IMG/VR virus record: IMGVR_UViG_3300033149_000786
Location: 1 to 41,907 of that record
Strand: one strand, 5' to 3'
Length of the DNA: 41,907 nucleotides
From: a virus
Shown: piece after piece, positions 3,412 through 33,652 of the stretch
Position numbering within the stretch: the first letter of the stretch is position 1
Layout of the letters: each line of letters opens with the position of its first letter
Program-made: the position numbers and the translations under genes
Notes under the pieces: model-generated
Told to the model about the DNA's origin: nothing
What the model saw: the letters and a program-made list of their open reading frames with translations, nothing else
Databases searched by the model: none

Positions 3412-3710
3412 TGCGGGTGCCTCCTTTTTTGGCTGAGGACTCTCTGGGCTGTTCTTTCCGAGAGCCTCATGCCCTTAGCGATTTCTCTTGGCGACCAGCC
3501 TTTATGATACAGGCTGATTATCCTTGCATCTCTTTCGGCTTTCCTTGCCTTGCTAGGAGTCCGTATCTTTCCTTCCATAACCACACACCTGTCATAAGGG
3601 CAGTGGTTAACACAGAAATCTATCCCCTCCTGACTATTCGGGTCAGTGATTCCTGCCTCAGCCATAGCCTGACAAATCCTGTAAACTCCACTGCTCGGTT
3701 CATTACTCAT
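3408..3710 (-). CDS. Cys-motif helix-turn-helix regulator (100 aa)
   Basis: The N-terminal half has a cysteine cluster (DFCVNHCPYDRCVV, residues ~32-45). The C-terminal half is a clear helix-turn-helix: ARIISLYHKGWSPREIAKGM followed by LSERTAQRVL, residues ~62-92. Small HTH proteins with this CPYDxC cluster are common phage transcription regulators; the target here is unknown. It is the first full gene of the left operon, about 90 bases downstream of a consensus promoter. Its ATG lacks a ribosome site of its own (AAAAGATT) and is overlapped by a 15-codon leader ORF, so translation is probably coupled. Confidence 0.85.
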   Translation of the reverse strand: MSNEPSSGVYRICQAMAEAGITDPNSQEGIDFCVNHCPYDRCVVMEGKIRTPSKARKAERDARIISLYHKGWSPREIAKGMRLSERTAQRVLSQKRRHPQ

Positions 3711-3750
3711 AATCTTTTATGCGGGAGACAGAAGGCGGGCAGAGCACCAT
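3703..3750 (-). CDS. Possible 15-codon leader peptide upstream of the HTH gene
   Basis: GGGAGG is followed closely by an ATG opening MVLCPPSVSRIKDYE, whose TAA lies 5-7 bases inside the HTH gene. The small hairpin GGCAGA/TCTGCC (3738-3755) covers this start and part of its ribosome site. Together they suggest coupled, structure-controlled translation of the regulator. The peptide is very short and could be chance. Confidence 0.35.
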   Translation of the reverse strand: MVLCPPSVSRIKDYE

Positions 3751-3805
3751 CTGCCTCCCTGTTCCTGAATACCAGATAGGCATACATATTTACCTATCTA
3801 TTATC

Positions 3806-3835
3806 ATTATACCATATCGGCTACCCAGTTGTCAA
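3806..3835 (-). promoter_or_regulatory. Consensus sigma-70 promoter, leftward early operon
   Basis: Minus strand TTGACA (3835-3830), 18-base spacer ending ATATGG, TATAAT (3811-3806). Both boxes match the consensus perfectly. It faces the HTH regulator and the left operon. Confidence 0.92.
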
Positions 3836-3858
3836 TAGCCTTTGCTCCTTGGTATAAT
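3829..3858 (+). promoter_or_regulatory. Sigma-70 promoter, rightward, overlapping the divergent promoter
   Basis: Plus strand TTGTCA (3829-3834), 18-base spacer ending TTGG, TATAAT (3853-3858). Its -35 overlaps the -35 of the leftward promoter within the palindrome TTGTCAA / TTGACAA, so the two cannot easily be occupied at once. Confidence 0.6.
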
Positions 3859-3884
3859 AAATTACCGCTTGCTGTTAAATATAC

Positions 3885-3913
3885 TTGACAACGGCATCCA
3901 AATATGGTATACT
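3885..3913 (+). promoter_or_regulatory. Sigma-70 promoter, rightward packaging/virion operon
   Basis: TTGACA (3885-3890), 17-base spacer, TATACT (3908-3913), with the spacer ending AATATGG. The same block ATACTTGACA...AATATGGTATACT recurs at 15281-15313. The transcript would start about 50 bases before the ATG at 3973. Confidence 0.9.
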
Positions 3914-3972
3914 TGGGGTATAGGGGATTGAATAACTCTAAACTGACCGAGCTTGTAAGTACTGGAGGACAC

Positions 3973-4524
3973 ATGACATATCCGCCTGAAATAGTAGAGA
4001 ATAACCCCAAGGGAAGTCCAGAAGTCAGTATAGCCTCATCAGTTGTGCCATACGACCGTGATGACGAGAGAGCTTTATACTTCGGTTATCGGGCTTCTGG
4101 TCTATCAGTCCGTGAAACTCTCCACATGATTCAACGGTCTAAGACCTGGTTATCCTTGCAGAGGCGAGACCCAGAGTTCGTTGACCTTGAGAATAGAATC
4201 CCTGAGTTCCGCCGAGAACTTTCCAAGGAATATGTGGAGATAGAGTTCTTCCGCAACTTCCGCCTCATACTAGAAAAAGACCACCAGATTATCCAGAAGT
4301 CCTTGAACCTGAAAAGTGGAGAGTCATTATCTCGTCAAGACCAAGAGTATCTCATCAAACTCCGCTCCCAGTATTCTCCAACTCAAATCCAAATTCTTGA
4401 GGCTATTGTGGAAGGCGGAAAGGGAGGATTCAATTTTGCTCAGTTCGTGGCAGAACACCCTGACATCATCCAGATGTCAAGAACAGACACAGTAACATTG
4501 GCTAGAGGCAAAAGTGAGGATTAA
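3973..4524 (+). CDS. Putative terminase small subunit / HTH protein (183 aa)
   Basis: First gene of the rightward block and three small genes upstream of the large terminase, the usual place for the small subunit. An N-terminal disordered stretch leads to a helix-turn-helix-like segment (LYFGYRASGLSVRETLHMI, residues ~35-53) and a long helical region rich in Arg/Glu. ATG at 3973 has GGAGG 4 bases upstream; an in-frame ATG at 3904 falls inside the promoter -10 region and is rejected. DNA recognition for packaging is inferred from position and HTH, not from a family match. Confidence 0.6.
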   Translation: MTYPPEIVENNPKGSPEVSIASSVVPYDRDDERALYFGYRASGLSVRETLHMIQRSKTWLSLQRRDPEFVDLENRIPEFRRELSKEYVEIEFFRNFRLILEKDHQIIQKSLNLKSGESLSRQDQEYLIKLRSQYSPTQIQILEAIVEGGKGGFNFAQFVAEHPDIIQMSRTDTVTLARGKSED

Positions 4525-4938: not shown

Positions 4939-5156
4939 TGGCTGGAAGAGCAAGAAGAGCATCGAGGTCTCGTAGTACTGGCGGAGGAAGAAGATGGATT
5001 CAGAAAGCTATCAAGCGTCCTGGGGCATTTACTAGAAAGGCTAAGGCTGCTGGTATGTCTGTTCAGGCTTATGCCCGAAAGAAACGCCATGCAGCAGGCA
5101 GGCTTGGCAAGCAGGCTAGGTTAGCTCTGACTCTGAAAAAGATAAGTAGGAAGTAA
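4938..5156 (+). CDS. Basic phage protein with GAFTRKAKAAGMSVQ motif (72 aa)
   Basis: A Ser/Arg-rich head and a tryptophan (RRWIQKAIKRPG) precede the motif GAFTRKAKAAGMSVQAYA and KQARLALTLKK. Short basic modules of this form occur in many phages and large DNA viruses; their biochemical role is unsettled, and DNA or virion association is usual. ATG overlaps the previous stop (TAATG) with GGGAGG upstream, and its own TAA overlaps the terminase ATG, so the four genes are tightly coupled. Confidence 0.75.
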   Translation: MAGRARRASRSRSTGGGRRWIQKAIKRPGAFTRKAKAAGMSVQAYARKKRHAAGRLGKQARLALTLKKISRK

Positions 5157-6862
5157 TGGCTGTTGACACTCAGTACATCTCACAGGAAGAAGCCTTAGAA
5201 CGGCTTTTCTCAAATCGCCGCCTTACCCTTGAGACTCTGCTAGAGATAGAGGACAAGGACAGAAACCTTGTGCCTATGAAGCTGAATCCTATCCAGAAGG
5301 ACATCATCGCTACTAGCACCTGGCGAGATATATATGTCAAGCCTGGGCAGACTGGGTTTACTTCTCTCATAGCTGGTGACTTTCTGATAGACAACATCAC
5401 TATCAACGGTACTGTATCAGTCATTGTTTCCTATGACGAGTTCTCTGCCCAGCGTCTCCTGCTCAAGGCGAAGAAGTACCACCAATCTCTCCAAAGACGC
5501 ATACCATCTATACCTAGGCTAGACCACAAGTCCTCCACTGAACTCAGCTTCGAGGATAAGGATACAGGTTTCTACTCAACATTCTATATATTCTCCGCCC
5601 GAAGCTACGTACTCGGCAGAGGTGAGACAATTCATAATCTTCTGCTCGACGAATATGCCTTCTGGGTCGAAGGAACCCATGAGACTACCTTTGCGTCTGC
5701 CGTCCAGCGAGTTCCTTTGAAGGCAGGTACAAAGATTAGAATCGGCTCAACGCCTAACGGGGAAGATAATCCTTTCTGCGAAATGTACCGAGCAGCAAAG
5801 GAAGGGTATGCTATAGGCTCTGGCAAAATGAAGTCTGTTTATAAGCCTCACTTCTATCCCTGGTTTATTCATCCTGAGTACATAATGTATGCAGATGACC
5901 CGTTCTGCCTTGATGGAGACAACCAAGACCCTCTGCCTCACCTCGACGATGTAGAGAACCAACTGTTGAATATCCTCACTGGGTATTATAAGTTCGACAC
6001 TGCTACCGCTATGGCGAAACTCCGCTGGAGGCGGTATAAGCAGGTCGAGATGAGGTCTATGCGGAGAACTGGCGAGACGATATTTATCTTTGTTCAGGAG
6101 TTTCCTGAGGATGATGAGACTTGCTTCTTGACTGCAGGCGACCAAGCCTATTCGCCTGAGGTCATCGGGCAGAAATTACGGTTATGCTATCCTGCTCCTC
6201 TATCTCATACTTGTGTGAATGAGAAAACTGGAACATCGGCAGTTGCGGATATCTGGATTGACAGAGAAGAGGGCTTGCCTTATGTCCTCTCCATTGACCC
6301 TGGGAAGGGCAAGGTATCTGAGTCAGTAGCCCACGTCTGGCACTTTGAGGAAGGCTATCAGGACAAGGACGGAAATGACCATCCGCCAGTTATGAGACAT
6401 TGTGCAACCTTGGCAGGCTGGTATGATGAGTGGGAAATGGCTCAGTACTGTAAAGACTTAGCTTATTACTACAGCAATGCTGTGATATGTCCTGAGTCTA
6501 ATCTTGACATCGTATCTCATCTGAGAGATTATCCTTATCTGTACTACCGAGAAGATGTCCGTACTGGCAAACTGATTCGGGCAATCGGTTGGGAGACTAA
6601 CACTTCCACCAAGCCTTATATGATAACTGAACTTAACCGCTGCATGGAGGACATTGAGTGCTACGACCAGCGGTTCTGGTCTCAGTGTAGAAACATCCGC
6701 CGAGACCCGACTATGAAGTATGGGATTTCAGTTATAGGTGCAGATGACCATCATGATGCAGGCGCTATAGCAGTTGTCTGCAGGTCTGCTCAAGCAGTCC
6801 ATGCAGGCTATGTAGGTTCATCGGGAGATAATGGAGGATGGGACGAGAAATGGGGTAAGTAG
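5156..6862 (+). CDS. terL: Terminase large subunit (568 aa)
   Basis: DNA-packaging motor with ATPase and RNase H-like nuclease parts. A deviant Walker A lies at residues ~61-70 (VKPGQTGFTS), Walker B at 161-166 (NLLLDE) and the coupling motif GSTPNG at ~197-202. In the nuclease half, SIDPGKG (D381), ICPESN (E447) and GADDHHDAG (D530-D534) supply the expected acidic triad. The motor docks on the portal, encoded shortly downstream. Length is normal for the family. The ATG overlaps the previous stop, implying coupled translation. Confidence 0.95.
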   Translation: MAVDTQYISQEEALERLFSNRRLTLETLLEIEDKDRNLVPMKLNPIQKDIIATSTWRDIYVKPGQTGFTSLIAGDFLIDNITINGTVSVIVSYDEFSAQRLLLKAKKYHQSLQRRIPSIPRLDHKSSTELSFEDKDTGFYSTFYIFSARSYVLGRGETIHNLLLDEYAFWVEGTHETTFASAVQRVPLKAGTKIRIGSTPNGEDNPFCEMYRAAKEGYAIGSGKMKSVYKPHFYPWFIHPEYIMYADDPFCLDGDNQDPLPHLDDVENQLLNILTGYYKFDTATAMAKLRWRRYKQVEMRSMRRTGETIFIFVQEFPEDDETCFLTAGDQAYSPEVIGQKLRLCYPAPLSHTCVNEKTGTSAVADIWIDREEGLPYVLSIDPGKGKVSESVAHVWHFEEGYQDKDGNDHPPVMRHCATLAGWYDEWEMAQYCKDLAYYYSNAVICPESNLDIVSHLRDYPYLYYREDVRTGKLIRAIGWETNTSTKPYMITELNRCMEDIECYDQRFWSQCRNIRRDPTMKYGISVIGADDHHDAGAIAVVCRSAQAVHAGYVGSSGDNGGWDEKWGK

Positions 6863-6863
6863 A

Positions 6864-7044
6864 ATGGAGTATAAAAGAACGAATAGCGCAGACAAATCTG
6901 ACTTGCCAGGAATGTGGCAGGCGGATTAAATCAGGACATGGGTACTTCTGGAAACAGATGGAAAGAGTCCATCCTGTCAGAGGTCATATTATCCGTATTA
7001 TGAGAGTTTGTAAGAACTGTATGGAGAAATCAAATGAAGAATGA
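6864..7044 (+). pseudogene. Small zinc-finger ORF with broken or non-standard start
   Basis: Between terminase and portal one frame encodes LTCQECGRRIKSGHGYFW ... RVCKNCMEKSNEE, a clear CxxC...CxxC zinc finger. Reading back, this frame has no ATG, GTG or TTG before a TAA upstream. An ATG at 6864 with GGGGT 7 bases ahead opens the neighbouring frame (MEYK). Removing one A from the AAAA run at 6873-6876 would join them into a 59-residue protein. Explanations are a homopolymer sequence error, +1 slippage, or an unusual start codon. The end overlaps the portal start by 11 bases. Either way the zinc-finger half looks under selection. Confidence 0.6.
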
Positions 7045-8740
7045 AGCTCAGGCTGTTATATCTCGGTGTAATGAACTTAAGCGCTTCTGGGCACCTCGGG
7101 ATGCCAAGATGAAGGTGTGGTATAAACTTATCCAGATGGTCGACGAACTGGCAACTCCCAAAATGGAGTCCTTTGTAGGCAACGACCCTAGGAGTATGTT
7201 CAACCTTACTCTCCATATGCTAGACGCTCCTGTGCCTCATCGACTCCGCAACATTGACTCTATGGATGCAACAGTTCAAGCAGCCTCCGCCGAGGTTAGC
7301 ACAATTCTCGACCTAGCCTGGGCAGATGTTGAGGAGACATTCAGAAAAACAGGTCCTCGGCAATCTCTCAAGCGCAGCCTGATAGGAACACTCCTTGCTA
7401 CTGGCTGGTACTCATGCTGGTCAGCAGTAGGCGACACTGGGGATAGGGTCTTCCTCGACCTCTGGAGTCCAGCCCAAACTTATCCAATGTGGGATGCTGA
7501 CCTTGGTCTATCTGAAGTAGCCCATATATTTGAAGTTCCTGCCAGCCGCCTCTCAATGATGCAGAAAATGCTAGGCTGGACAGACTTAGGTGCTCTGCAT
7601 GGAGACCAACGTATCTATGACTACTGGTGGATTGAGATTGATTCGGAGTTCCCCTTCTCCACTCGAGTATGGAACGCTGTAGTTGCAGCAAACAAGCTCG
7701 TAAAGTTCGAGCCTACACGCTTCCGCACAATCCCAATCTATGTGGCTCCTGTCGGCGGTCTGCCTGATACAGGTCCTTTGTCTGAAGGCACTCCTTCCAG
7801 TGTCAATGCTGGAGCAGGTCAGGCTAAGGGGGAGCGATGGAAAGAAGAAATCGGACAGGGAATAGTGGCTACTAATGAGAACATCTATAGGTCCTGGAAC
7901 AAGTGGTGGTCGTTTAGCCTCCAGTTGCTTAGGGATACTGCCCAGCCTCGAATCTTTGAACGCAGCAGGTCGGGGAAGGCAATAGTTAAGCCTGAAGATG
8001 TCTTCCGCCGAGGAGCGATATTTAGAGGCGGGGCAGATGATTCAGTTGAATTTATCGGTGCACCTCCAATGCCTCTTGAACTCCGCTCCACTCAACTTGA
8101 CCTTGAAGCCATGATGCAGAGGGGCGGAGTTAGTTGGGCTATGTATGGAAATGTTACTGGGCAACTAACTGCCTACGTCATGTCCCAGATTGCTGCCTCT
8201 GCCAATCAGGCTATGAGACCTTACCATCAGGCTTTGCAGAACCTCTTTGCCGATATAGACAATAGTTGGATAGATGACATGAGGGAAAGAGGGGTTAGAC
8301 TCTACGGGCACTCTCTTCCGACTAATCTTCCCAAGGACGCCAGAGTGTCTGCTGACTTTGAGATAGAAATCCCTGGAGAACTTGTCCAGAAAGCAACGGT
8401 TGCCAGAATGCTCGACCCTGACTTTGCCCTATCCTACTCATACGTGGTAGAAAGGCTGTTCCCTGAGATTAAAAATCCTCTGCAGGAGCGAGCAAGGCGT
8501 TTGGCGGATAGAGCAGAACTAAGCGTAGAAAACGCCACTATAGCCAAGATTCGCTATTATCGGAGGCAAGCAGCGTATCTGGCAGACAAGGATGCAGATG
8601 CTGCTAGACTATATGACCTTGCCGCAGAGGCAGCCGAGGCTCAACTTATCCCTCAAGAAGCACCTGCTGCAGGTCGGGGAGAGATAGGCTCAAGGACAGA
8701 AGGACTACCCAGATACAACATTCCTGAGCTTCCAGTGTAA
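7034..8740 (+). CDS. Portal protein (568 aa)
   Basis: The dodecameric head-vertex channel through which DNA enters and leaves. It follows the large terminase directly, has portal-like length, and shows portal-style features: an N-terminal helical region (AQAVISRCNELKRFWAPRD), a WSPAQTYPMWD wing segment, a central loop near residue 250-280 rich in Gly/Ser, ATNENIYRSWNKWWSFSL, and a GNVTGQLTAYVMSQI segment before a helical C-terminus with many Ala/Arg (stem and barrel). GGAG stands 7 bases before the ATG. Assigned by position and general resemblance rather than one diagnostic motif. Confidence 0.85.
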   Translation: MKNEAQAVISRCNELKRFWAPRDAKMKVWYKLIQMVDELATPKMESFVGNDPRSMFNLTLHMLDAPVPHRLRNIDSMDATVQAASAEVSTILDLAWADVEETFRKTGPRQSLKRSLIGTLLATGWYSCWSAVGDTGDRVFLDLWSPAQTYPMWDADLGLSEVAHIFEVPASRLSMMQKMLGWTDLGALHGDQRIYDYWWIEIDSEFPFSTRVWNAVVAANKLVKFEPTRFRTIPIYVAPVGGLPDTGPLSEGTPSSVNAGAGQAKGERWKEEIGQGIVATNENIYRSWNKWWSFSLQLLRDTAQPRIFERSRSGKAIVKPEDVFRRGAIFRGGADDSVEFIGAPPMPLELRSTQLDLEAMMQRGGVSWAMYGNVTGQLTAYVMSQIAASANQAMRPYHQALQNLFADIDNSWIDDMRERGVRLYGHSLPTNLPKDARVSADFEIEIPGELVQKATVARMLDPDFALSYSYVVERLFPEIKNPLQERARRLADRAELSVENATIAKIRYYRRQAAYLADKDADAARLYDLAAEAAEAQLIPQEAPAAGRGEIGSRTEGLPRYNIPELPV

Positions 8741-8750
8741 GGAGTTTATT

Positions 8751-11700
8751 ATGCCAATAGAACCGATTAAACCTGAACTGCCAAGAGTTAGCCTAGCAGA
8801 GGAGAAAAAGCCAGAAGCTAGACCAAAGATGCCTCCTCCCCCTAAGCCTCCTGAATACTACCCTGGTTACAGGGCTGAGGCGGAGGCTGTTACTAAGAAT
8901 ATCTATCAGGCAAATAAGAGGATTAGAGAAGCTGCCGAGGCTCTGACCAAGGTTCAGCAGCGTGGAGTAGCACATCCTCTTAAGAGTATCGGTAGAGGTA
9001 TCCTGGTCGGGCTATTTCCTCCAGCAGGGCTAACTGCCGAACTTAATCGCCCGTATTCTCAGGAGGACTACGATGCCGCTCTGGCAGAGGCGCAGGCGGA
9101 ACTTGATGCGGCTACTATTGAGCTTCGTTCTACTGAATGGAGATTACAGGTTCTCCACACTCTTCCAGCTTTCCTATCCAGCAGGGCACATACTATCAGA
9201 GGTATTGATGACATAGTTTCTCTGATGCCTAATGAGACTATGTCCGACACTGACCGTACCTGGTTGCAACATACTTTCAAACGACTTGAGCATTTGAACA
9301 ATATTCTGCCTGATGACTTTGAAGGTACGGTTGATGAGGCTCAGAGCAAGATTGTAGAGTCTGTGTTGTCTGAGCCTAAACTCGCTTTGCGGGCAGTTCA
9401 TAATCTTACTGTTGATGAGCTAGAACGCTCTTTTCAGCCTCTCGCTGTTGAGCTTCCTGAAGGATTATCTCCAGAAGATGTTCGGGGTCTAATGAGTAAA
9501 ATGGAGTTGGAGGATGAGGAGGCTGAAAAGGAACTTGAGGCTTATCTCCTAGAGCAAGCTAACCTATGGGCGAAGGAAACAGACCGTATAAATCTTCTCC
9601 GTGCTGGTCTGTTACAGGCTGAATCTCCTGAGCTTACTCCTCTCGAGTTTGCTAAACTAATGTTCGTTCAGCCTCTCATGGGAGGTATTCAACTCCTGGA
9701 TAAGTACTTTGATATGCTACCTAGACCTCTAGCCTCTGCTGCCATTATCGGAGTCCATCGGCTATTCAAGACTCCTGACGATACTCTAGCTGGCAGAATG
9801 GAGCAAATATATCAGTACTACCGAAACAACGGTGAGTCCTCTTGGGCTGCCTATGCTAAGGCTATAAATGAAGTTGATATGCCCTGGTGGCTGAGAATGG
9901 GGATTGAGACTAGCTTTGACCCAACTTCCTATATAGGTCTAGGCGTGGCTACTGCTGCTGCTAACAAAACTGGCTCAATTCTTACCCGAATAGGTTTGAG
10001 AAACATTGGTAGCAGAATCGGTCCTTTCATAGGTAGCCTTGAGAATGGCTTTATCCGAGGCTCTGATGCAATCTTTAAGGCTGGAGTGGAAGTTGTTCTA
10101 TCTCCTATCAAGGGCAGCTTCTGGCTTGCAGGTGCAGGGTATCGGATTCCGAAAACTCTGACAATGATGTCCAGAAACTTTGCTCGCCATACTAGCATGA
10201 ACTTTAAGGCTATACTGGAAAGGCTACATCCAGAAGTCAGAAACATGGCAGGAATGACTGCAAAGGACATCCGTGAGGCAGCCGAGGCTTGTATTGAGGC
10301 TGCTCTGACCAGACCTGGCGAAGGCTTCGATGACATGGTTAGAGTGGGAACTCAGCTTCTGGAGTTTGAGTATCTTGATGACGCAGCAGTAAGGAAGTTG
10401 CTTAAAGGTTTCATTGAGGAAGGCTTCGATATTGATACTATACGACTAGCCAGAGTTAATGACGAGGTCCTGAATATGTTCTCTGGTCAGAGTCCTAAGA
10501 CTACAGCAGGCAATATTCTCTCCAAACTCGGTCTTGAGCAAACAGAGGATTCTGTCACTAAGGTAGTAACAAGACTGGCGACTCTGAAAGATGACATTGT
10601 AGACACTGCAATGAGAGTGTTTAAGTATGATAGCCCTAACAGGCAACTTATCGGTATGTTTGACAACTTGGCAGAAAAGCGGTATAACAACCTCAGAAAT
10701 CCTATATCTGTTCATGCTACTCAGGCAGGTCAGACTGTCTCATGGGTTAGCCGAGTAACAGACAGAATGCTATATGCCTCTCATCTAGTAAACCTTGAGC
10801 GCAAGGTCATAATGCCCTTCGCTCGGTGGAATCTGCTCTTTGCAAACTTCGGTCCTTTCAACTTCCTTGAGAATATGCAGCGGAGTTTTCTCGGCGGAGC
10901 AGAAATAATGTATCCGAAGTCCTATGGTGGAGTAGCTGAGACCAACCGTCTGTTCCGAGGTCTCAAAAACGCTCCTTATGAACTGCAAATGCTGGAGCGA
11001 GGACAGCAACGACTTGAAATGGCTTTGATAGACCCGAAAACTGGCAGCACATCTGCCTTCCGAGGAGGCAAAATCCCATTTGTTACTAAGGGAGTGAAGT
11101 TTAGAGGCAAGGACATCGGTAAAACTATCAATATCCGAGGCGTTGATTATAAGATAACTGACTTCCAGTCTTACAATGATATGTGGGAGGCATTGACTGG
11201 TATCCAGCGAGCCTATGACTATCAGGTTCAATACATGAAGGCTCTGCCCGAAGTAGCTCCAGATGAAATGAAACAGATTACTGAGGCGGTTTTGAAAAGG
11301 CGGAATGAACTGGAGCAGATTACTAAGTTCAGCAAGTCTGACATGAGAGACATTGAGAGAGTTATGATTCAGGATGCTACTGTAGGTCCTGAAGCAGTAG
11401 CTGCTCATGCTGAGATAGATGCCTTGGAGCTAGAGCGGAGGCAGATTTCAAAAGAACTCGGCAAGACATTTGACAAGTGTACTGATGTTCGTGCTATGAC
11501 TAAGCAAGGCATCAGGGATGAAGTACTGGACGGCAGTATCTTTTCAGACATAGACGGCAGAATGGCTGCCTGGGTGGAGCGAGAGAGAGAAATGGACCTG
11601 GTGTCCTTGACAAAGCAGATTGATGCACTACAGGAAGAAGCAGCCCAGTTTGCCAGAGCATATCAGGGCAAGGCTACTTTACTAGACGACCTGACTCAGG

Positions 11701-14700
11701 ATATTACATTGGGTACACCAGAAATCTTAGGAGCACCTGACTTGCCTTGGCGTAAATCTCCTATAATGTTGGAAGGAGAAAAGGTTGGGGAGTTGTCGTA
11801 CCATGCTGGTGCTACTCCTGACGAGTTAGTGGTATCTAAAATTGAAGTTAGTAAGCCTGGCATACTTAATCGTAGGTTTATGCAAGATATGGAACTGCTT
11901 ATTCACAATAGGGCAAAAGAAGAAGGAGCGTCTACGATAAAAATTATGTCTAGGAAGGGTCATGAACTTATGTATTCTGGGTCTGGTTATAAAGAGGTAA
12001 CTAGGGGAATGTATGTCAAAGATGTTATGCAACCTTCCTCTCATGCTCCTCAAAACCTCGATGAGTTCCTTGGCGACATGGAGAACATCTCCGCCATGCA
12101 GAATGCCATAGATGAGAGAATCCATGACTACCGCCGACTGGTGGAGTTGCGGTCTCACAAGCTCACTCCTGGGAAGGAAGTGGATGACTTCCATATAGGC
12201 TCCAACCGTCTACTCAATGAATTCATGGAGCAGTCGAAAGAGCAGATGGACTCAATAATAGATGAGCTACAGGAGTTCCTGACTAAGCGACCTCAGATTC
12301 TCGGTCCTGACGGAAAACCTCTACCAAGGCTGGAACTAACTGAGCCTCAACTTCACGCTGTGGACTCTCTAGCCAACATCTACCGAATGGAGAATGCGAA
12401 TGTTCTGAGTACTCGCAATCGTCTGGCAGAAATTGAGGCTAAGATTCCTCGAACTCCGCCAAAGAAAAGGAACGCCCGCTTCTGGCAACAGCAACGTGCA
12501 GACAAGGCACTTATCTGGGACGAACATACTATAAATGCTAGAAGGCTGAGGAACCTCCGTCTGGATTCTAGCCGACAGTTTCTGGCTGCAGTTGGTAAAA
12601 CTCCTTATCTGCCTGAAACTCTCATGCCAGTAGCTAAGGAGCTAACTCCATCTCACATTGCCTTCCTATTCGGTGCCTCAGGTGATGATGCTTATAGAGG
12701 TCTAACCAGAATATCTCACCATACTACTGTTCGTCCTCGGGAGGATTTCATTGACTATGTGAAGAATCAGGCAAATGCTTATGCTAATAAGTTCCAAACG
12801 ACTGCTGCCGACCTTGGCTTTACTGACGAGGCTATCGGAGAAGTATATGACCAGATGTGGAGGAATCTCGGCATAGAGCCTTCAATGCTGACTCCTGACT
12901 CTCCCACTATGATGCAGATGGAGGAGATTAGGCAGGAGCTAATTAGGCTTCATGCGGCAGTCAAGATGGATGAGACTGACATAGCTAGGTGGAGAGGTTA
13001 TGTTAATGGAGTAGCAGATGATGTGAGGAAGATGCCGATGTATAAAGGAGTTGCTATTAAGTCTCCTGAGGAAGCTGTGAAGAGCGGGTATCTTGTCAGG
13101 GGAGGAGCCGAGCGACCAGTGTATAGCGAGGCTGGTGGTACTTGGTTTACTGAGAGTGTAGAGTATGCCAGAACCTACGGTAAGGAGTTGTCTTTTGCTA
13201 GTAAGCCTAAGAACCTTAAAGTGTATGACAGTCTAGATGACTTCTTGGATGACTTAGCTACTATTACTAATATAGAAGAACTTAAAACTAGTGAGTTGGT
13301 AGCTTTGAAAGGTAGACTTCAGAAAGAGGGCTATGCTGGTATAGAGTATCCTATGAGAGAGTTCGGGGTTAATGAAGTATGGTTGTTTGAGAGACCTCAG
13401 CTTAGGAAGCTAGAGGAGTTAGCAGTTCCTGAGGTAACTTCTAAATGGTGGAATAAAAAGGAGTCTGCTATGGCTCAGGCTCGTTCTCAGCATGAACTTG
13501 CCTATCCCACCTACGATGATGCCAATATTATAGACGAGACAATGCGGAGTATCTTCCCCTTCTGGACTTACGAAGCTTTTAGGTGGAAATGGATTCCTCG
13601 TACCTGGATGCGTACTCCAGGAACAATGACTGGTCTAGCTCGGTACATGGACTATACAGATGGAGGCTATATTCCTGTCCCTGGTACTGACCTTCAGCTA
13701 AATCCTCTCCGAGGTTCAATCTGGATGGGCGGTCTGAGGCGGTTCTACCTCCGAGACTTTCCCGAATACTACGATGCCTTCCCTGGGATGGAGTTCATAG
13801 ACTATATCGGCAGAGCAGGCTTCTATCCAGGCATCCACATCATGGGACCTATTGTAGGCTTTGGTTATGCAGCCGAGGGTAAACCTGAACTTGGTGAAGT
13901 AGCTCCCGCCTGGGTGAAAACTGGTCTTTCTGCCCTCCGTGCCTTATCTCCTGAGCATCTCGGAAAGGTTATTGACATAGTCTATCCTGACCGTTTCCGT
14001 GACTTCCAGACAATGCTGACCCTTGGTGAGGAAGGCTATGATGCAGATGAAATCTGGAGGAAGAAGAAACAGAACATTAAACTTACCGAGGAGGAAGAAA
14101 AAATATGGCTCAGGGCAGAGGCAAGAGCTAACGGTCTGAAAGGTATCCTGATGGAGCAGTCTGGACTCTTCCGAATCCGTCCTGCTGAGTACGAGGAAGT
14201 CCGCCGAGAAATGCGCCTAGCGATTGAGGAAGCTACAGGTGTGCCAGTCCGTGTGCAGGAACAAATTGACCGCTTGTATCCTACTACTGGCAAACGCTTC
14301 TCTGACTACTACAAGCTGGATGTACTACAGCAGAAGCTCCTGTACGAGTTTGAATCCTACCGCCGATGGCAGGGGATTACCACTCCGCTATATCCTTCCT
14401 CCTGGCAGGCTCTGGAGATTAAAATCCGTGATTACTATGAGACTCTGGAAAAGAACTTCAATCAGGCTCGGCGTGAGGGAATATACGAAGATGGCGAACT
14501 AGTCCGTCCTTCCATAGTAGACCTCAACCGCCAACTTGTTTCTGGTGAAATAGGTCCTGACCAGTGGCGGGCTATGAGGTCTGATATACAATCTAAACTA
14601 GCCGAGGTAGCCCGAGTTCTCGGTGAGACTCCTGCATACAAGGATGTACCGAAGACTCTGGAAGAACGGGAAGCCTGGCTGAGGGAAAAGGGTATTCCAC

Positions 14701-15254
14701 TCCCGACTTACGGTCCTGACCAGGAACTGCTCTGGTACTACTACGAACTGGAACCTGAGTACAAGTACAACTGGGACAGCCAGAGAATGGAGCTTGACTT
14801 TGACACTTACTACTCTAAGATTGACATTTTGCTTGACTCTCTAAACGAGGCTCAGAGACAGCGGTTAATAGACAGGATTCAACTCGACTGGACTCCTATG
14901 GAACGACTCTACTGGTCGGTTAGCCGAGAATACTTCCGCCCGTACAGGAATGTCAGGAGTGTAGTGCTTAACCAGTATACTGACGAACAACGCCAGCAGA
15001 TACGGCGGTTTGAAGTTGCACGGGGAGCAGAGCGTGAAGAGCTAAAGCAACTAATAGGACCTGACGGTAAGAAGTTAATCTCAGGATTCAATGAGAGAGT
15101 CCGAGAAGCTCGCCAACGACTCCGCTACTTAGACCCCGACCTGGATGCGTGGTCGTACTTCTTCGGCAACACTGACACGTTTATAACTGGAGCCGCTAAG
15201 GAGAAATATGAGCAACTTAAGAAACGCTACCTAACTGAAGATATGATTGAGTAG
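8751..15254 (+). CDS. Giant modular virion protein with GNAT-like and ADP-ribosyltransferase-like domains (2167 aa)
   Basis: The largest gene, placed between portal and scaffold, so probably an internal or ejected virion protein. A Pro-rich N-terminus leads into long helical regions, including ETSFDPTSYIGLG near 390 and the conserved-looking FPFWTYEAFRWKWIPRTWM near 1600. Two compact segments interrupt the helical background. Residues ~997-1093 look GNAT-like (GELSYHAGATPDELVV, RRFMQDMELLIHNRAKEEG, GHELMYSGSGYKEV). Residues ~1433-1560 match polyvalent-protein ADP-ribosyltransferases: LVRGG, GGTWFTESVEYARTYG, EGYAGIEY and NEVWLFERPQ. Both segments use more TTA/TTG, GTT and AGT codons than their flanks, suggesting later insertion. 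No maturation-protease motif was seen. Confidence 0.85.
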   Translation: MPIEPIKPELPRVSLAEEKKPEARPKMPPPPKPPEYYPGYRAEAEAVTKNIYQANKRIREAAEALTKVQQRGVAHPLKSIGRGILVGLFPPAGLTAELNRPYSQEDYDAALAEAQAELDAATIELRSTEWRLQVLHTLPAFLSSRAHTIRGIDDIVSLMPNETMSDTDRTWLQHTFKRLEHLNNILPDDFEGTVDEAQSKIVESVLSEPKLALRAVHNLTVDELERSFQPLAVELPEGLSPEDVRGLMSKMELEDEEAEKELEAYLLEQANLWAKETDRINLLRAGLLQAESPELTPLEFAKLMFVQPLMGGIQLLDKYFDMLPRPLASAAIIGVHRLFKTPDDTLAGRMEQIYQYYRNNGESSWAAYAKAINEVDMPWWLRMGIETSFDPTSYIGLGVATAAANKTGSILTRIGLRNIGSRIGPFIGSLENGFIRGSDAIFKAGVEVVLSPIKGSFWLAGAGYRIPKTLTMMSRNFARHTSMNFKAILERLHPEVRNMAGMTAKDIREAAEACIEAALTRPGEGFDDMVRVGTQLLEFEYLDDAAVRKLLKGFIEEGFDIDTIRLARVNDEVLNMFSGQSPKTTAGNILSKLGLEQTEDSVTKVVTRLATLKDDIVDTAMRVFKYDSPNRQLIGMFDNLAEKRYNNLRNPISVHATQAGQTVSWVSRVTDRMLYASHLVNLERKVIMPFARWNLLFANFGPFNFLENMQRSFLGGAEIMYPKSYGGVAETNRLFRGLKNAPYELQMLERGQQRLEMALIDPKTGSTSAFRGGKIPFVTKGVKFRGKDIGKTINIRGVDYKITDFQSYNDMWEALTGIQRAYDYQVQYMKALPEVAPDEMKQITEAVLKRRNELEQITKFSKSDMRDIERVMIQDATVGPEAVAAHAEIDALELERRQISKELGKTFDKCTDVRAMTKQGIRDEVLDGSIFSDIDGRMAAWVEREREMDLVSLTKQIDALQEEAAQFARAYQGKATLLDDLTQDITLGTPEILGAPDLPWRKSPIMLEGEKVGELSYHAGATPDELVVSKIEVSKPGILNRRFMQDMELLIHNRAKEEGASTIKIMSRKGHELMYSGSGYKEVTRGMYVKDVMQPSSHAPQNLDEFLGDMENISAMQNAIDERIHDYRRLVELRSHKLTPGKEVDDFHIGSNRLLNEFMEQSKEQMDSIIDELQEFLTKRPQILGPDGKPLPRLELTEPQLHAVDSLANIYRMENANVLSTRNRLAEIEAKIPRTPPKKRNARFWQQQRADKALIWDEHTINARRLRNLRLDSSRQFLAAVGKTPYLPETLMPVAKELTPSHIAFLFGASGDDAYRGLTRISHHTTVRPREDFIDYVKNQANAYANKFQTTAADLGFTDEAIGEVYDQMWRNLGIEPSMLTPDSPTMMQMEEIRQELIRLHAAVKMDETDIARWRGYVNGVADDVRKMPMYKGVAIKSPEEAVKSGYLVRGGAERPVYSEAGGTWFTESVEYARTYGKELSFASKPKNLKVYDSLDDFLDDLATITNIEELKTSELVALKGRLQKEGYAGIEYPMREFGVNEVWLFERPQLRKLEELAVPEVTSKWWNKKESAMAQARSQHELAYPTYDDANIIDETMRSIFPFWTYEAFRWKWIPRTWMRTPGTMTGLARYMDYTDGGYIPVPGTDLQLNPLRGSIWMGGLRRFYLRDFPEYYDAFPGMEFIDYIGRAGFYPGIHIMGPIVGFGYAAEGKPELGEVAPAWVKTGLSALRALSPEHLGKVIDIVYPDRFRDFQTMLTLGEEGYDADEIWRKKKQNIKLTEEEEKIWLRAEARANGLKGILMEQSGLFRIRPAEYEEVRREMRLAIEEATGVPVRVQEQIDRLYPTTGKRFSDYYKLDVLQQKLLYEFESYRRWQGITTPLYPSSWQALEIKIRDYYETLEKNFNQARREGIYEDGELVRPSIVDLNRQLVSGEIGPDQWRAMRSDIQSKLAEVARVLGETPAYKDVPKTLEEREAWLREKGIPLPTYGPDQELLWYYYELEPEYKYNWDSQRMELDFDTYYSKIDILLDSLNEAQRQRLIDRIQLDWTPMERLYWSVSREYFRPYRNVRSVVLNQYTDEQRQQIRRFEVARGAEREELKQLIGPDGKKLISGFNERVREARQRLRYLDPDLDAWSYFFGNTDTFITGAAKEKYEQLKKRYLTEDMIE

Positions 15255-15284
15255 GTATAATAATATACAATTATTTTATTATAC

Positions 15285-15313
15285 TTGACAAGCCGCCATA
15301 AATATGGTATACT
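15285..15313 (+). promoter_or_regulatory. Sigma-70 promoter, capsid operon
   Basis: TTGACA (15285-15290), 17-base spacer ending AATATGG, TATACT (15308-15313). Near-duplicate of the promoter at 3885. A GGTATAATAA block about 30 bases upstream is also shared by both sites. Drives scaffold, capsid and downstream virion genes. Confidence 0.92.
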
Positions 15314-15335
15314 ATACTATGAGGGGGTAAAGCAA

Positions 15336-16040
15336 ATGGTAGAACCTAATGAACCAAAAGGTGCTCCGAAGCAGCCTGAGCCGACTCCGCAGCCTACTCC
15401 TTCCACTCCTCCAGAGCCTGCTGCAACGACTCCGCCAACCTCTGGTCCTGAACCGAAGGTTGAAGTCAAAGACGGCGTTGTTCTGGTGGACGGAAAGAAG
15501 TATGTGAAGGAATCGGACTTGATAGCTGCTAAGGAGAGTTTGCAGGGGCAACTGGAGGCTGCGCAGCAGACACATAATGAAACAGTTGACAAGCTCAACC
15601 TTCAGGTGTCTGAAGCACAACAGGAAGTTGCCAAGGCAAACGCTGCATTGGAAGAAGCAAAGAAAGCCCATGAAGTGGGTGCTACTTCTGAAGAAGAGGT
15701 AGCGAGAATCAAGCAGGAGGCAGAAGCCGCTAAGACCTCTCTCGAGACCGCTAATACTTCTGCTCTGGACTACCGTAGGAAATACATCATGGTAGCCTAC
15801 AATATTCCGCCAGACTCCGAGACTGGTCAAAAGCTACTTGAGAAAGATATGTCTCAGCTTGAGTCTTTTGAAGAGGCTTTGAAAGCCTTAGCAACTAGCC
15901 GAGGCGGACCTGGTAACTATGTTGTAGGAGGAGCTTCTGGTGGAGCAGGTCCTGTTTCAGAAATGGACAGGGCTAAGGCTCTTATTGCTGCTACTCCTAT
16001 ACGAGGAACTAGAAATGAACCGCCTAATAAAGGACAATAA
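15336..16040 (+). CDS. Putative capsid scaffold protein (234 aa)
   Basis: The gene directly precedes the capsid gene. It has a Pro/Thr/Glu-rich disordered N-terminus, a short ordered piece (VVLVDGKKYVKESDL, ~55-69), a long Gln/Glu/Ala coiled coil (~75-150) and a glycine-rich C-terminal part. This is the usual plan of head-assembly scaffolds, which fill the procapsid and leave during maturation. ATG at 15336 has GAGGGGG 8 bases upstream; an earlier in-frame start falls in the promoter. A linked protease was not found. Confidence 0.8.
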   Translation: MVEPNEPKGAPKQPEPTPQPTPSTPPEPAATTPPTSGPEPKVEVKDGVVLVDGKKYVKESDLIAAKESLQGQLEAAQQTHNETVDKLNLQVSEAQQEVAKANAALEEAKKAHEVGATSEEEVARIKQEAEAAKTSLETANTSALDYRRKYIMVAYNIPPDSETGQKLLEKDMSQLESFEEALKALATSRGGPGNYVVGGASGGAGPVSEMDRAKALIAATPIRGTRNEPPNKGQ

Positions 16041-16061
16041 CTTTGAAAGGAGTAAGCTATT

Positions 16062-17138
16062 ATGGCTGATTCAGGTGGACACTGGAAGACACTCGCAGAA
16101 GCTCAAAAACTTACTCAGTCTCTAAAAATTCCTGGCGTTTTTGAAGAGGACATCAAGAGGAATAATCCTGTTGAGAGAATCACAGTTGGTCAGGCTGCGG
16201 GGACTGGTTTGAAGATTGAGTGGCTGAGGGAGAAAACAACTACCGAGGATGCCGTTATCGAGACAGGCATTGGAGACCAGCTGTCCTGGTCAGATGATGT
16301 CGAGTACGAGGAGAAAGAAATGACTCTTCGCCGCATCTACATCCAGCGTAAACTCGACCACTATGTTGAAGGTATTTATAGTACCTACAACAACTACGAG
16401 GCTCGAGTCCTGCTGGAGTCCGAAAAGGGTCTCAAGCGCAAACTCGGTGCAAGGCTTATCTATGCGGATACTACCTATGGAGGCACTCCTACCCAGTTTG
16501 ACGGGTATCATGCCCTGGCGGCAGAACATGGTGCGCCTTATACTGCTGGCAGTTCTAACGATGCCAAGAACATTGATGGTGGTGAGGCAGGGCTGTCTCT
16601 CGGTCTGCTCCGTGTACTAATAGATGAGATGAAACACGGAGTGGATGAAATCCTAGCACCTTACGAGATTATCCGTAGAATGGATGCAGCCTATCAGGAA
16701 AAGGGATTTGCTGGTCTAGCTTATAACTCCGCTGGCAATCTCGGTTTCCTGACCATGGGCTACAACGACATCGGCAAGAGGGTGCTGTTCTGGGATGGAG
16801 TCCCCATTGTCAGAACTGACTATCTGGTGAAGGAAGAAGCTAACACTGGTACTGGCTCAAGTTCAGATGCAAGAGCACTATACTCCAGTGATGCACAATA
16901 TTCTATCTTTGCCGTCAAGTATGGTCAGATGATGCTTGGAGAGCAAAACCCTGGTTTGCAGTTTGCTTATGGCGGAACTGAAGGACAGGGCGACCTCTAC
17001 AAGCTAGTCCGCTTTCCTGAACTGGAAGACTACGATGCAGGCGGCATCAGGCTTGTTACTTACGGAGCGGTACTACTCGGCTCTAGCCTCTGTCTTGGTA
17101 GGATATTCGACATAGAAGATGTGGCTATTACAGTATAG
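16062..17138 (+). CDS. Major capsid protein (358 aa)
   Basis: Position after the scaffold and overall character fit a HK97-fold capsid protein. An N-terminal arm (LKIPGVFEEDIKRNNP) is followed by an extended beta segment with IEWLREKTTTEDA and an acidic E-loop-like stretch (GDQLSWSDDVEYEEKE). A long helix then has SEKGLKRKLGARLIYAD. Downstream come VLFWDGVPIVRTDYL and the C-terminal GLQFAYGG...RLVTYGAVLLGSSLC. The AAGGAG ribosome site and the new promoter upstream suit a highly expressed gene. Related groups are capsids of SU10 and similar podovirus-like phages, but I could not check. Confidence 0.85.
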   Translation: MADSGGHWKTLAEAQKLTQSLKIPGVFEEDIKRNNPVERITVGQAAGTGLKIEWLREKTTTEDAVIETGIGDQLSWSDDVEYEEKEMTLRRIYIQRKLDHYVEGIYSTYNNYEARVLLESEKGLKRKLGARLIYADTTYGGTPTQFDGYHALAAEHGAPYTAGSSNDAKNIDGGEAGLSLGLLRVLIDEMKHGVDEILAPYEIIRRMDAAYQEKGFAGLAYNSAGNLGFLTMGYNDIGKRVLFWDGVPIVRTDYLVKEEANTGTGSSSDARALYSSDAQYSIFAVKYGQMMLGEQNPGLQFAYGGTEGQGDLYKLVRFPELEDYDAGGIRLVTYGAVLLGSSLCLGRIFDIEDVAITV

Positions 17139-28134: not shown

Positions 28135-28698
28135 CTATCCGCCTCCAAACTTAAAGAATCTGGCCATAAAAAGGTCTTCAACTTCCTCAATCGAAAGCTC
28201 AGGCAAGTCAAAGAGGACTCTATCTTCAGGTAGATACCATCCTTCCCCTTTACTGGGCATCAGAGCATGGGCTTCAGTAGCAAGCATAATGTTATCAGCC
28301 TTCTTAATCAAGTTCCATTGTACTCCTATACAGCCAAACTTCAGCATGATTCTACCAGTTATGTAATCGTCTATATCCTTGAGGACTTTGATGCTATGCT
28401 TAACTGGTCTGCTAATGTCATTAGTATATGCCTCTGCTGCATCGTGGAGTAGGGCAGCAAGGCAAGTTCGGTTTATCACCTCGGTGTCATATATGTATCT
28501 GCTCATGTCTCCTTCTACCATATCTACCACATGGATACTATGCTGCCCGACTGAGTAGAACCTGCTACACTGTCCAGTAAATCGGCATAACTGAGACAAA
28601 GGTTTGGCGATGTCCTCGATGCAGATGTCCTCGACTTCAATGTGTAGTGGATTTATTCTCTTTCCAGTTACTGTCTCAATCCAGACTTCTTGCTCCAT
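28135..28698 (-). CDS. HD-domain phosphohydrolase, YfbR-like (187 aa)
   Basis: Metal ligands of the HD superfamily are visible: RFYSVGQHSIHVVD (His ~53), ALLHDAAEAY (HD ~85) and KKADNIMLATEA (Asp ~134). The arrangement matches phage 5'-deoxynucleotidases related to YfbR, which dephosphorylate dNMPs. It lies between polymerase and methyltransferase genes, fitting a nucleotide-pool role. GGAGG stands before the ATG. Substrate is inferred from family only. Confidence 0.85.
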   Translation of the reverse strand: MEQEVWIETVTGKRINPLHIEVEDICIEDIAKPLSQLCRFTGQCSRFYSVGQHSIHVVDMVEGDMSRYIYDTEVINRTCLAALLHDAAEAYTNDISRPVKHSIKVLKDIDDYITGRIMLKFGCIGVQWNLIKKADNIMLATEAHALMPSKGEGWYLPEDRVLFDLPELSIEEVEDLFMARFFKFGGG

Positions 28699-32034: not shown

Positions 32035-32988
32035 TTATTCTCCTCCATTTTGTACTCCTGTTATCAGGTTCCTTAAACTAACAATCCCGTCGAAAGAGGC
32101 AGTAATCTCCATTCCGACTGCATCTAGTCCCATGCCTTCAATTCCGCACTTTGTAATCTTAGCAACAGGCTGGCGGACTACTTTTGTCTTACCGTCTGCG
32201 CCTACAACGGAGTTTTCCTTGACTCTTGTCCAGACAATCAGGCTGCACTCCTTCTTGGTATGCTTAAAGCCATCTATGACCAGGTTACCTGTCTTGCCCT
32301 CTGTCAAGCCTCCCTTTCCGTCAGGAACCATTCCGTACTCATCAGTAGGATAATGGGTGAGGATTAGATTCTTCCTGAATGACTTCCCAGTATCCATCAG
32401 GGTTGTCATTCTGTCATTAGGCTGTGCGTACTCTATAGGCTGTAAGCGTTCCCGATACTCATCTTCTGGCATGGGCACATTCTTAGTAGCAGGGTCTTTC
32501 TTCCACTTGTATTCCTGAATATCCTGCAACTCCTGCAACCTAGCATTGTGGGCTATGTTCCAGAGCTTAGTGGCAGAGTCAAATACTATAGTAGCGATGT
32601 TCTGTTGCCCTACATATACGAAGTCAGTAACGATGGTCTGCCATAGTTCCTTCATCCCTTCCACTCTCTTCGGCTGCTGGAACTTCCGAACTGACGGAGC
32701 ATTTCCTGTCAATGCTCCTTTCAACTTATCAACTTGCAGTGGCTTTGGGTAAGGCTTAGTAACAATGTCGTACTGAGCAATGTCAATCTTAGTAACATCA
32801 TCGTCCCTGCCAAGTTGCTTAATCTTCATATCAGGATTCTCCTGCATAAACCTCCATGCTGCTCTTCTAAACCCATCCATATCAAGTTCAAAGTGGAACA
32901 TAGGTTTCGGGAATGACAGAGCCATTGTAGTTTTACAACTGCCTTCATCCCCGACTATTGCTATTACTCCTATATAATCAAAGTCCAT
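32035..32988 (-). CDS. RecA-fold ATPase, Sak4/AAA_24-like (317 aa)
   Basis: Walker A is VGDEGSCKTT (residues 12-21) and Walker B IATIVFDSATK (~130-140). RKNLILTHYPTDE downstream fits a sensor/L1 region of phage RecA-like NTP-binding proteins. Related Sak4 proteins pair homologous single strands with the help of an SSB. It overlaps the Cas4-like nuclease gene by 11 bases, which suggests they act together in recombination. Confidence 0.85.
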   Translation of the reverse strand: MDFDYIGVIAIVGDEGSCKTTMALSFPKPMFHFELDMDGFRRAAWRFMQENPDMKIKQLGRDDDVTKIDIAQYDIVTKPYPKPLQVDKLKGALTGNAPSVRKFQQPKRVEGMKELWQTIVTDFVYVGQQNIATIVFDSATKLWNIAHNARLQELQDIQEYKWKKDPATKNVPMPEDEYRERLQPIEYAQPNDRMTTLMDTGKSFRKNLILTHYPTDEYGMVPDGKGGLTEGKTGNLVIDGFKHTKKECSLIVWTRVKENSVVGADGKTKVVRQPVAKITKCGIEGMGLDAVGMEITASFDGIVSLRNLITGVQNGGE

Positions 32989-33652
32989 TGTCTGCCCTCC
33001 TCAGTGTCTCACATATCAGCTTGTATCGGCAGTTCTTACACTCCCAGTCGTAGCAATGCCCAAACGGAGTAGGCGGTTTGTTCTGCTCTAAAGCACTATC
33101 CAGCACTTCCTTATTATGCTTTATAGTGTGCCAGTTATCCTCAATCTCCTCTTCGGTGAAGTAAAATGTGTCGGTATATAGCTGAGGAAATGGAGGCGAG
33201 TAGCCTCCCATCATATATAAAACAATCAGGTCGTACTGGTTTGTGTCTCGAATCTTGCATCCCCCCATCATGTATGCCAGCCAGGTGACTGGGATTTCCT
33301 CATCAATATAGTGCTTCTTAGCAGACCTCCGTGTAGTTTTGAGCTCTTGGAGTCTCTCGACCTCGCCTCTGGTCATAGTCATATCAGGTCGGTATATAAT
33401 GCCCTCGAACTCATAGGTCTCAGCGGTTGCATCTTTCGGTGTTAGGACATCTTGCAGTCCATAACCTAAAGCAAACAACATCACTTCCTCATCGGTAGGT
33501 TCTATTGCCTGCTTCTGGTCTAGAAATCCTTTGGTTCTGCAGTAGACGTAACTGCTCAGATGGTTTGGCTCTCGGACTTCTTTAATCTTATATAGACTTG
33601 CAAGATGGTCGAGGATTTTACGGCTTAGTTCTGGATTTTCTACTCGTTTCAA
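32978..33652 (-). CDS. Cas4/RecB-like PD-(D/E)XK nuclease with probable Fe-S cluster (224 aa)
   Basis: The nuclease core has YRPDM (D90) and LQELKTTR (E103-x-K105). Cysteines C38 and C200/C205/C208/C214 (CYDWECKNCRYKLIC) match the 4Fe-4S-binding pattern of Cas4 and AddB. These enzymes trim DNA ends, often 5'-3'. The start is TTG at 33652 with AGGAGG upstream. A gene-free 330-base stretch with strong RNA structure lies directly before it. No CRISPR genes are near, so a recombination role with the RecA-like neighbour is likelier. Confidence 0.88.
   Translation of the reverse strand: MKRVENPELSRKILDHLASLYKIKEVREPNHLSSYVYCRTKGFLDQKQAIEPTDEEVMLFALGYGLQDVLTPKDATAETYEFEGIIYRPDMTMTRGEVERLQELKTTRRSAKKHYIDEEIPVTWLAYMMGGCKIRDTNQYDLIVLYMMGGYSPPFPQLYTDTFYFTEEEIEDNWHTIKHNKEVLDSALEQNKPPTPFGHCYDWECKNCRYKLICETLRRADNGL

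Follow-up and report, generated by a model that had tools for sequence, protein, structure and literature searches.

The viral record IMGVR_UViG_3300033149_000786, analysed here in its entirety (41,907 bases, hereafter the window), raises the question of what a single protein of 2167 residues is doing among the head genes of a phage. Its open reading frame (ORF) starts with ATG and stays open from 8751 to 15254 (+ strand, as for all features below unless stated otherwise), just as an initial annotation had described it. That annotation placed the gene after the portal gene and read the product as carrying a module like the ADP-ribosyltransferases (ARTs) of polyvalent proteins and a GNAT-like module, which would be first-strike enzymes if ejected with the DNA. 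Our comparison of related loci shows directly that this giant protein is a conserved frame with a small number of fixed slots, that the contents of these slots are exchanged, and that one type of module can occupy different slots; this is our main result. Neither Pfam, PHROGs and PDB sequences nor a set of 50,697 phage records yielded a significant hit for the whole protein, and direct searches with its GNAT-like and ART-like modules gave nothing significant in the same collections, so that motif reading alone could not settle the identities of the domains.

Relatives were sought in viral contigs in three rounds, which returned 3, then 8, then 61 loci, the last with a profile of the C-terminal part; all 61 loci (designated L with a number) lie in viral contigs. 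The closest frames are about 85% identical to that of the window and the most distant about 28%. In a full-length alignment of 30 relatives, to which distant ones were added, the large length differences are restricted to a few places, and it is this alignment that defines the slots. The conserved segments of the frame are residues 1-966, ~1100-1430 and 1563-2167. The N-terminal frame (residues 1-966; 8751..11648) has few insertions in the relatives; the alignment places a 49-residue insert at window residue 332 in one clade, and L023 has a helical-looking insert of 151 residues (its residues ~668-796) at window residue 604, a site unused by other near relatives. The C-terminal frame (residues 1563-2167; 13437..15251) is the most conserved part of the protein, and inteins are its sole insertions. 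Since the same frame and slot recur in many independent metagenome contigs, an assembly artefact is ruled out. By sequence, no entry in Pfam, PHROGs or the PDB corresponds to the frame, and its family is undescribed among virion genes; the slot organisation within this family is what is new.

Slot A (residues 967-1097; 11649..12041) holds a GNAT-fold module in six members, namely the window and five distinct relatives, and a 13-residue junction in the rest of the near clade. Slot C, at about residue 1182 (residues ~1170-1206; 12258..12368), is empty in the window, where only a linker is present, and is filled in six relatives by ART-like, GNAT, nucleotidyltransferase-like, HExxH or unknown modules. 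Slot B (residues 1433-1562; 13047..13436) is occupied in the window by a module of probable ART fold, and in the relatives it is either empty or holds ART-like or other enzyme-like domains, its length varying between about 20 residues, a linker, and about 270. Scoring of slot B in 43 distinct rows gave 18 empty and 15 ART-like slots, three with GNAT modules, two each with nucleotidyltransferase-like, HExxH-like (protease-like) and unknown modules, and one short insert. An extra insertion site at residue 1406 (12966..12968), where the aligner places 113-167 residues in L011, L026 and L041, could result from slot B having been split in the alignment.

Several slot-B modules of the relatives, at the position taken by the ART-like module in the window, are matched by Pfam: ART-PolyVal in L023 (E 4e-7), L007 (E 9e-6), L054 (E 1e-4) and L052 (E 3e-4), NTP_transf_2 in L022 (E 1.9e-7) and Acetyltransf_1 in L019 (E 3.6e-5). 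Against the curated cut-offs, only L022 and L019 score clearly higher; L023 just reaches its cut-off, and the remaining ART-PolyVal matches fall short of it. These domains of the relatives fit the suggestion of a polyvalent protein; the modules of the window itself lie below Pfam detection. Module-module comparison links the L003 module to that of L054 (E 4e-21), and the HExxH labels were given by motif and mutual similarity (HEFMH in L008, HELGH in slot C of L033, a degenerate HExxH in L026). Comparisons by hhalign between small module alignments gave signals too weak to decide.

Other slot contents extend this range. Nucleotidyltransferase-like modules with a GS...DxD pattern are seen in slot B of L022 and L013 and in slot C of L041, with clear Pfam support for L022 only. 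Slot B of L054 (residues ~1260-1500) appears to hold two ART-like modules in tandem, the second called by motif alone, and slot B of L031, L041 and L004 and slot C of L026 contain no recognised domain, making them candidate new effector types.

Exchange of modules is most evident between relatives with closely similar frames. L060 and L064 have frames 93% identical, and slot B is empty in the former and holds a GNAT in the latter; L049 and L052 (91%) carry a GNAT versus an ART, L046 and L051 (86%) an empty slot versus an ART, and the window and L010 (84.5%) an ART versus an empty slot. The reverse is seen in L030 and L051, whose modules are 49% identical despite frames that are only 36% identical. 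In a tree built from the C-terminal frames of the 43 rows, the class of slot B changes at least 24 times, no fewer than random (mean of 20.9 with shuffled labels), a count that comes from a quick tree and is slightly favoured by the prior removal of identical rows. Modules also move between slots: the GNAT type that fills slot A in the window recurs in other lineages in slot C, as in L036 (E 1.5e-21), and in slot B, as in L049 (E 1e-7), and one ART type is shared by L011, where it sits in slot C, and L066, where it sits in slot B (E 4e-24).

The GNAT-like fold proposed at residues ~997-1093 was confirmed by structure prediction. An AlphaFold2 model of residues ~983-1095, built on eight aligned copies, reached a mean predicted local distance difference test score (pLDDT) of 86.2 and a predicted template modelling score (pTM) of 0.81. 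Foldseek searches of the PDB with this model gave a best E of 3.4e-5 at probability 1.00 and 137 chains at E <= 1e-3, GNATs leading, and VIA-align matched the GNAT part of Elp3 at Z 11.4 (105 residues aligned, root-mean-square deviation 3.0) and many GNATs, acetylating toxins among them, at Z >10. The model therefore assigns the slot A segment to the GNAT fold; enzymatic activity is at most a prediction.

For the ART-like segment, the strings on which the initial annotation had relied are all present (LVRGG at residues 1448-1452, TWFTESVEYARTYG at 1464-1477, EGYAGIEY at 1526-1533 and NEVWLFERPQ at ~1540-1549), and the fold it proposed at ~1433-1560 is probable, while the acidic residue usual in strand 5 is absent. 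The best AlphaFold2 model of residues 1433-1562, built on seven heterogeneous rows, is of moderate quality (pLDDT 77.6, pTM 0.62; the other four models were lower). Its top Foldseek match in the PDB is the crystal structure of AcrIF11 (6kyf), a weak match at E 0.021 and probability 0.93. In the VIA comparison, MbcT, NatT, ParT, diphtheria toxin and AcrIF11 (Z 2.2) appear, also weakly, at Z 2.0-3.7 amid unrelated chains, and among viral predicted structures annotated PARP and PolyVal ART proteins match at E 0.09-0.3. A profile of seven other ART-like modules, from which the window was excluded, scored 17.6 bits to residues 1430-1562, against 11.9 for the best of ~4,800 scored shuffles, and aligned R1450 to E1532. 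On the strength of this profile and the GNAT fold search, we rejected chance motif matches as an explanation. Taken together, the model and the profile make an ART fold probable for residues ~1433-1562. A scan of viral contigs with the window ART alone found nothing related to it, which for now makes it an orphan type.

The active site is less conventional. The alignment places R1450 (13098..13100) in strand 1, where relatives have R or H, TWFTES (residues 1464-1469; 13140..13157) in strand 2, and GYAGIE (residues 1527-1532; 13329..13346) at strand 5, with A1529 where most relatives have D (GYDGI) and with E1532 three residues on. In place of the H-Y-D active site of ART-PolyVal and HYD2 ARTs, with H in strand 1, Y in strand 2 and D in strand 5, the window thus has R1450, TWFTES and A1529. 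Several relatives also have R in strand 1 yet keep the strand-5 D, and the replacement of this residue by A1529 leaves the catalytic state of the window ART uncertain. As for the alternative R-S-E active site, R1450 is present in the window, and equivalents of the S and E are not definable from the model; an R...ST-like...ESEL pattern can be seen by eye in the modules of L011, L056 and L062.

The giant gene lies within a recognisable cluster of virion genes. Upstream are the large terminase subunit (TerL; 5156..6862), supported by tblastn against annotated terminases, and a 568-residue presumed portal protein (7034..8740). The best TerL match (E 7e-22) is a record described as Podoviridae, and others include a Pseudoalteromonas virus. 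Downstream, a coiled-coil protein (15285..16040) begins 31 bp after the giant ORF and is likely a scaffold, given its position and conserved order, with weak matches only; its gene is kept also in relatives without modules. It is followed by the major capsid protein (16062..17138), supported by homology to PHROG 212 (E 3.5e-9) and to annotated capsid proteins. The order terL, portal-like, giant, coiled-coil and capsid recurs in related contigs, as far as these extend and the genes are detectable. The giant gene adjoins virion genes, and its upstream neighbour, the portal gene of the initial annotation, is called a portal from gene order in the relatives and size; general family and record searches gave no match for the portal-like protein. 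PDB profile searches with this protein, TerL and the C-terminal frame gave nothing useful. The largest other ORF in the window is <=620 residues, leaving no candidate tape measure, and the tail of the phage is probably short.

Inteins interrupt the frame at two sites 30 residues apart, near slot B, both unoccupied in the window. The first, between W1605 and T1606 (13565..13566), is occupied in L008, L010, L016, L027, L048, L055, L062 and L066, and the second, between Y1635 and T1636 (13655..13656), in L004 and L008, so that L008 has both filled (14528-15466 and 15557-16474; the L004 insert spans 3505-4401). These intein-like inserts are about 300 residues long, begin with C or S and end in GN before T or S; the best Pfam Intein_splicing match, for one of them only, is E 0.0014. 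The slot modules have no splicing signature and sit at other sites, which rules them out as inteins.

On balance, we favour the reading that the giant protein is a polyvalent-type virion protein of a probably short-tailed phage, with exchangeable cargo in fixed slots and probably ejected with the DNA. Its conserved frame would be built into or beside the virion, the position of its gene being that of MuF and gp7 proteins in other phages, and the fixed slots in mid-protein would carry exchangeable enzyme-like domains, here the GNAT in slot A and the probable ART in slot B. The giant would most likely be packaged near the portal and enter the host with the DNA; the delivered modules would then modify host or defence proteins, and recombination would swap modules as hosts change. 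We infer this location, the ejection, the catalysis and the targets; an unchanging frame encoded among head genes, combined with variable enzyme-like cargo, agrees with the model of polyvalent proteins as packaged, injected proteins (PMC5512222). More tentatively, and at somewhat less than an even chance, the whole group may be a family of tailed phages with an effector cargo bay, in which unrelated ART, GNAT, nucleotidyltransferase and metallopeptidase modules are exchanged and are injected together with the genome, providing a first strike on host defences that can be altered.

Comparison with the polyvalent proteins of Iyer et al. 2017 (PMC5512222) shows both similarities and disparities. 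Like them, the giant is a large multidomain protein encoded among late virion genes, with ART, GNAT and metallopeptidase-type modules in the family and at least two effector-type domains (GNAT fold and probable ART) within the 2167 residues of the window protein; one GNAT family in that study typically has an ART neighbour in the same polypeptide. Unlike them, its frame is unrecognised by Pfam or PHROGs, its modules sit in fixed internal slots, are swapped between near-identical frames and recur as one type in several slots, and a nucleotidyltransferase module (L022) occurs here in a phage protein, whereas polymerase-beta-type nucleotidyltransferase modules were reported only for conjugative elements. 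The MuF polymorphic toxins of temperate phages (Jamet et al. 2017, PMC5576092) share the gene position directly after the (presumed) portal gene and variable effector domains that include ART and metallopeptidase, but the cargo of the giant is internal rather than a C-terminal extension and no small immunity ORF lies directly downstream. No Pfam MuF model matched the giant protein at E <= 1, in a search with sequence profiles that could miss a distant MuF, and on these three grounds we rejected membership in the MuF toxins. The likeness to T4 Alt is an analogy of delivery, the proposed entry of an ADP-ribosyltransferase with the DNA, and not family membership, as Alt belongs to the R-S-E Alt/VIP2 clade and the window module resembles the ART-PolyVal type, without the strand-5 acid. 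AcrIF11 is the closest structural match of the window ART, but it is small and stand-alone, and the window module shows no evident equivalent of its essential D115.

Several findings weigh against an ejected polyvalent-type protein. Given A1529, the window ART may be inactive or altered in function. The GNAT loop reads KPGILNRRF where the canonical acetyl-CoA loop is Q/RxxGxG/A; a GxLNRR-type pattern is conserved in this GNAT family. Many of the other ART-like labels in the relatives rest on motifs or mutual similarity, a search of prokaryote genomes for a host or prophage found no copy of the frame, and no relative of the giant protein was found among sequenced phages. The conserved place of the giant gene in the head cluster, between the portal-like gene and capsid, and the many relatives that keep a module-free frame, which points to a structural core role, would also suit a protein of virion assembly or of the portal vertex that remains within the particle or the producing cell, with modules acting late, in assembly or lysis or on superinfecting phages, as enzyme modules do not require delivery. 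We consider this unlikely, since ART, GNAT and metallopeptidase modules are the types assigned by Iyer et al. to injected polyvalent proteins (PMC5512222) and module turnover is the expectation for an arms race with varying hosts. Less likely still, the slot contents could be mostly tolerated passengers, accepted by surface loops as these accept inteins and having little function after insertion. Inteins at two sites close to slot B, the many empty slots and a window ART without the strand-5 D would be in keeping with passengers, but the modules carry no parts for splicing or homing, keep the reading frame in all relatives that were read and fall mostly into a few enzyme classes rather than being random domains, and the conserved positions of the GNAT type persist across lineages.

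Within the favoured reading of an ejected polyvalent-type protein, the modules might be specifically anti-defence rather than agents of general take-over like T4 Alt. AcrIF11, an ADP-ribosyltransferase anti-CRISPR that modifies Csy1 (crystal structure 6kyf; PMC12421852), is the structure in the PDB that the window ART model matches best, and quick module replacement fits variable host defences. This match, however, is informative on fold and not on target, and an anti-defence role has been demonstrated for none of the other modules; we regard this narrower case as rather doubtful.

If the frame is ejected, it would be a natural vehicle for delivering enzymes, with the sites at which cargo is inserted already defined. 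New anti-defence and host-modifying enzymes could then be sought in its slots, as the comparison of relatives has already delimited a candidate effector in every filled one. Such a vehicle would also mean that polyvalent proteins can evolve by exchanging the contents of slots rather than by accreting domains freely.

Elsewhere in the window, a gene at 28135-28698 (- strand) strongly matches PHROG 318 (E 5e-53), a phage deoxyribonucleoside 5' monophosphate phosphatase, and adjoins a family A DNA polymerase. At 32035-33652 (- strand), a Sak4-like ATPase adjoins a protein with a weak match to a Cas4-type nuclease (E 0.014).

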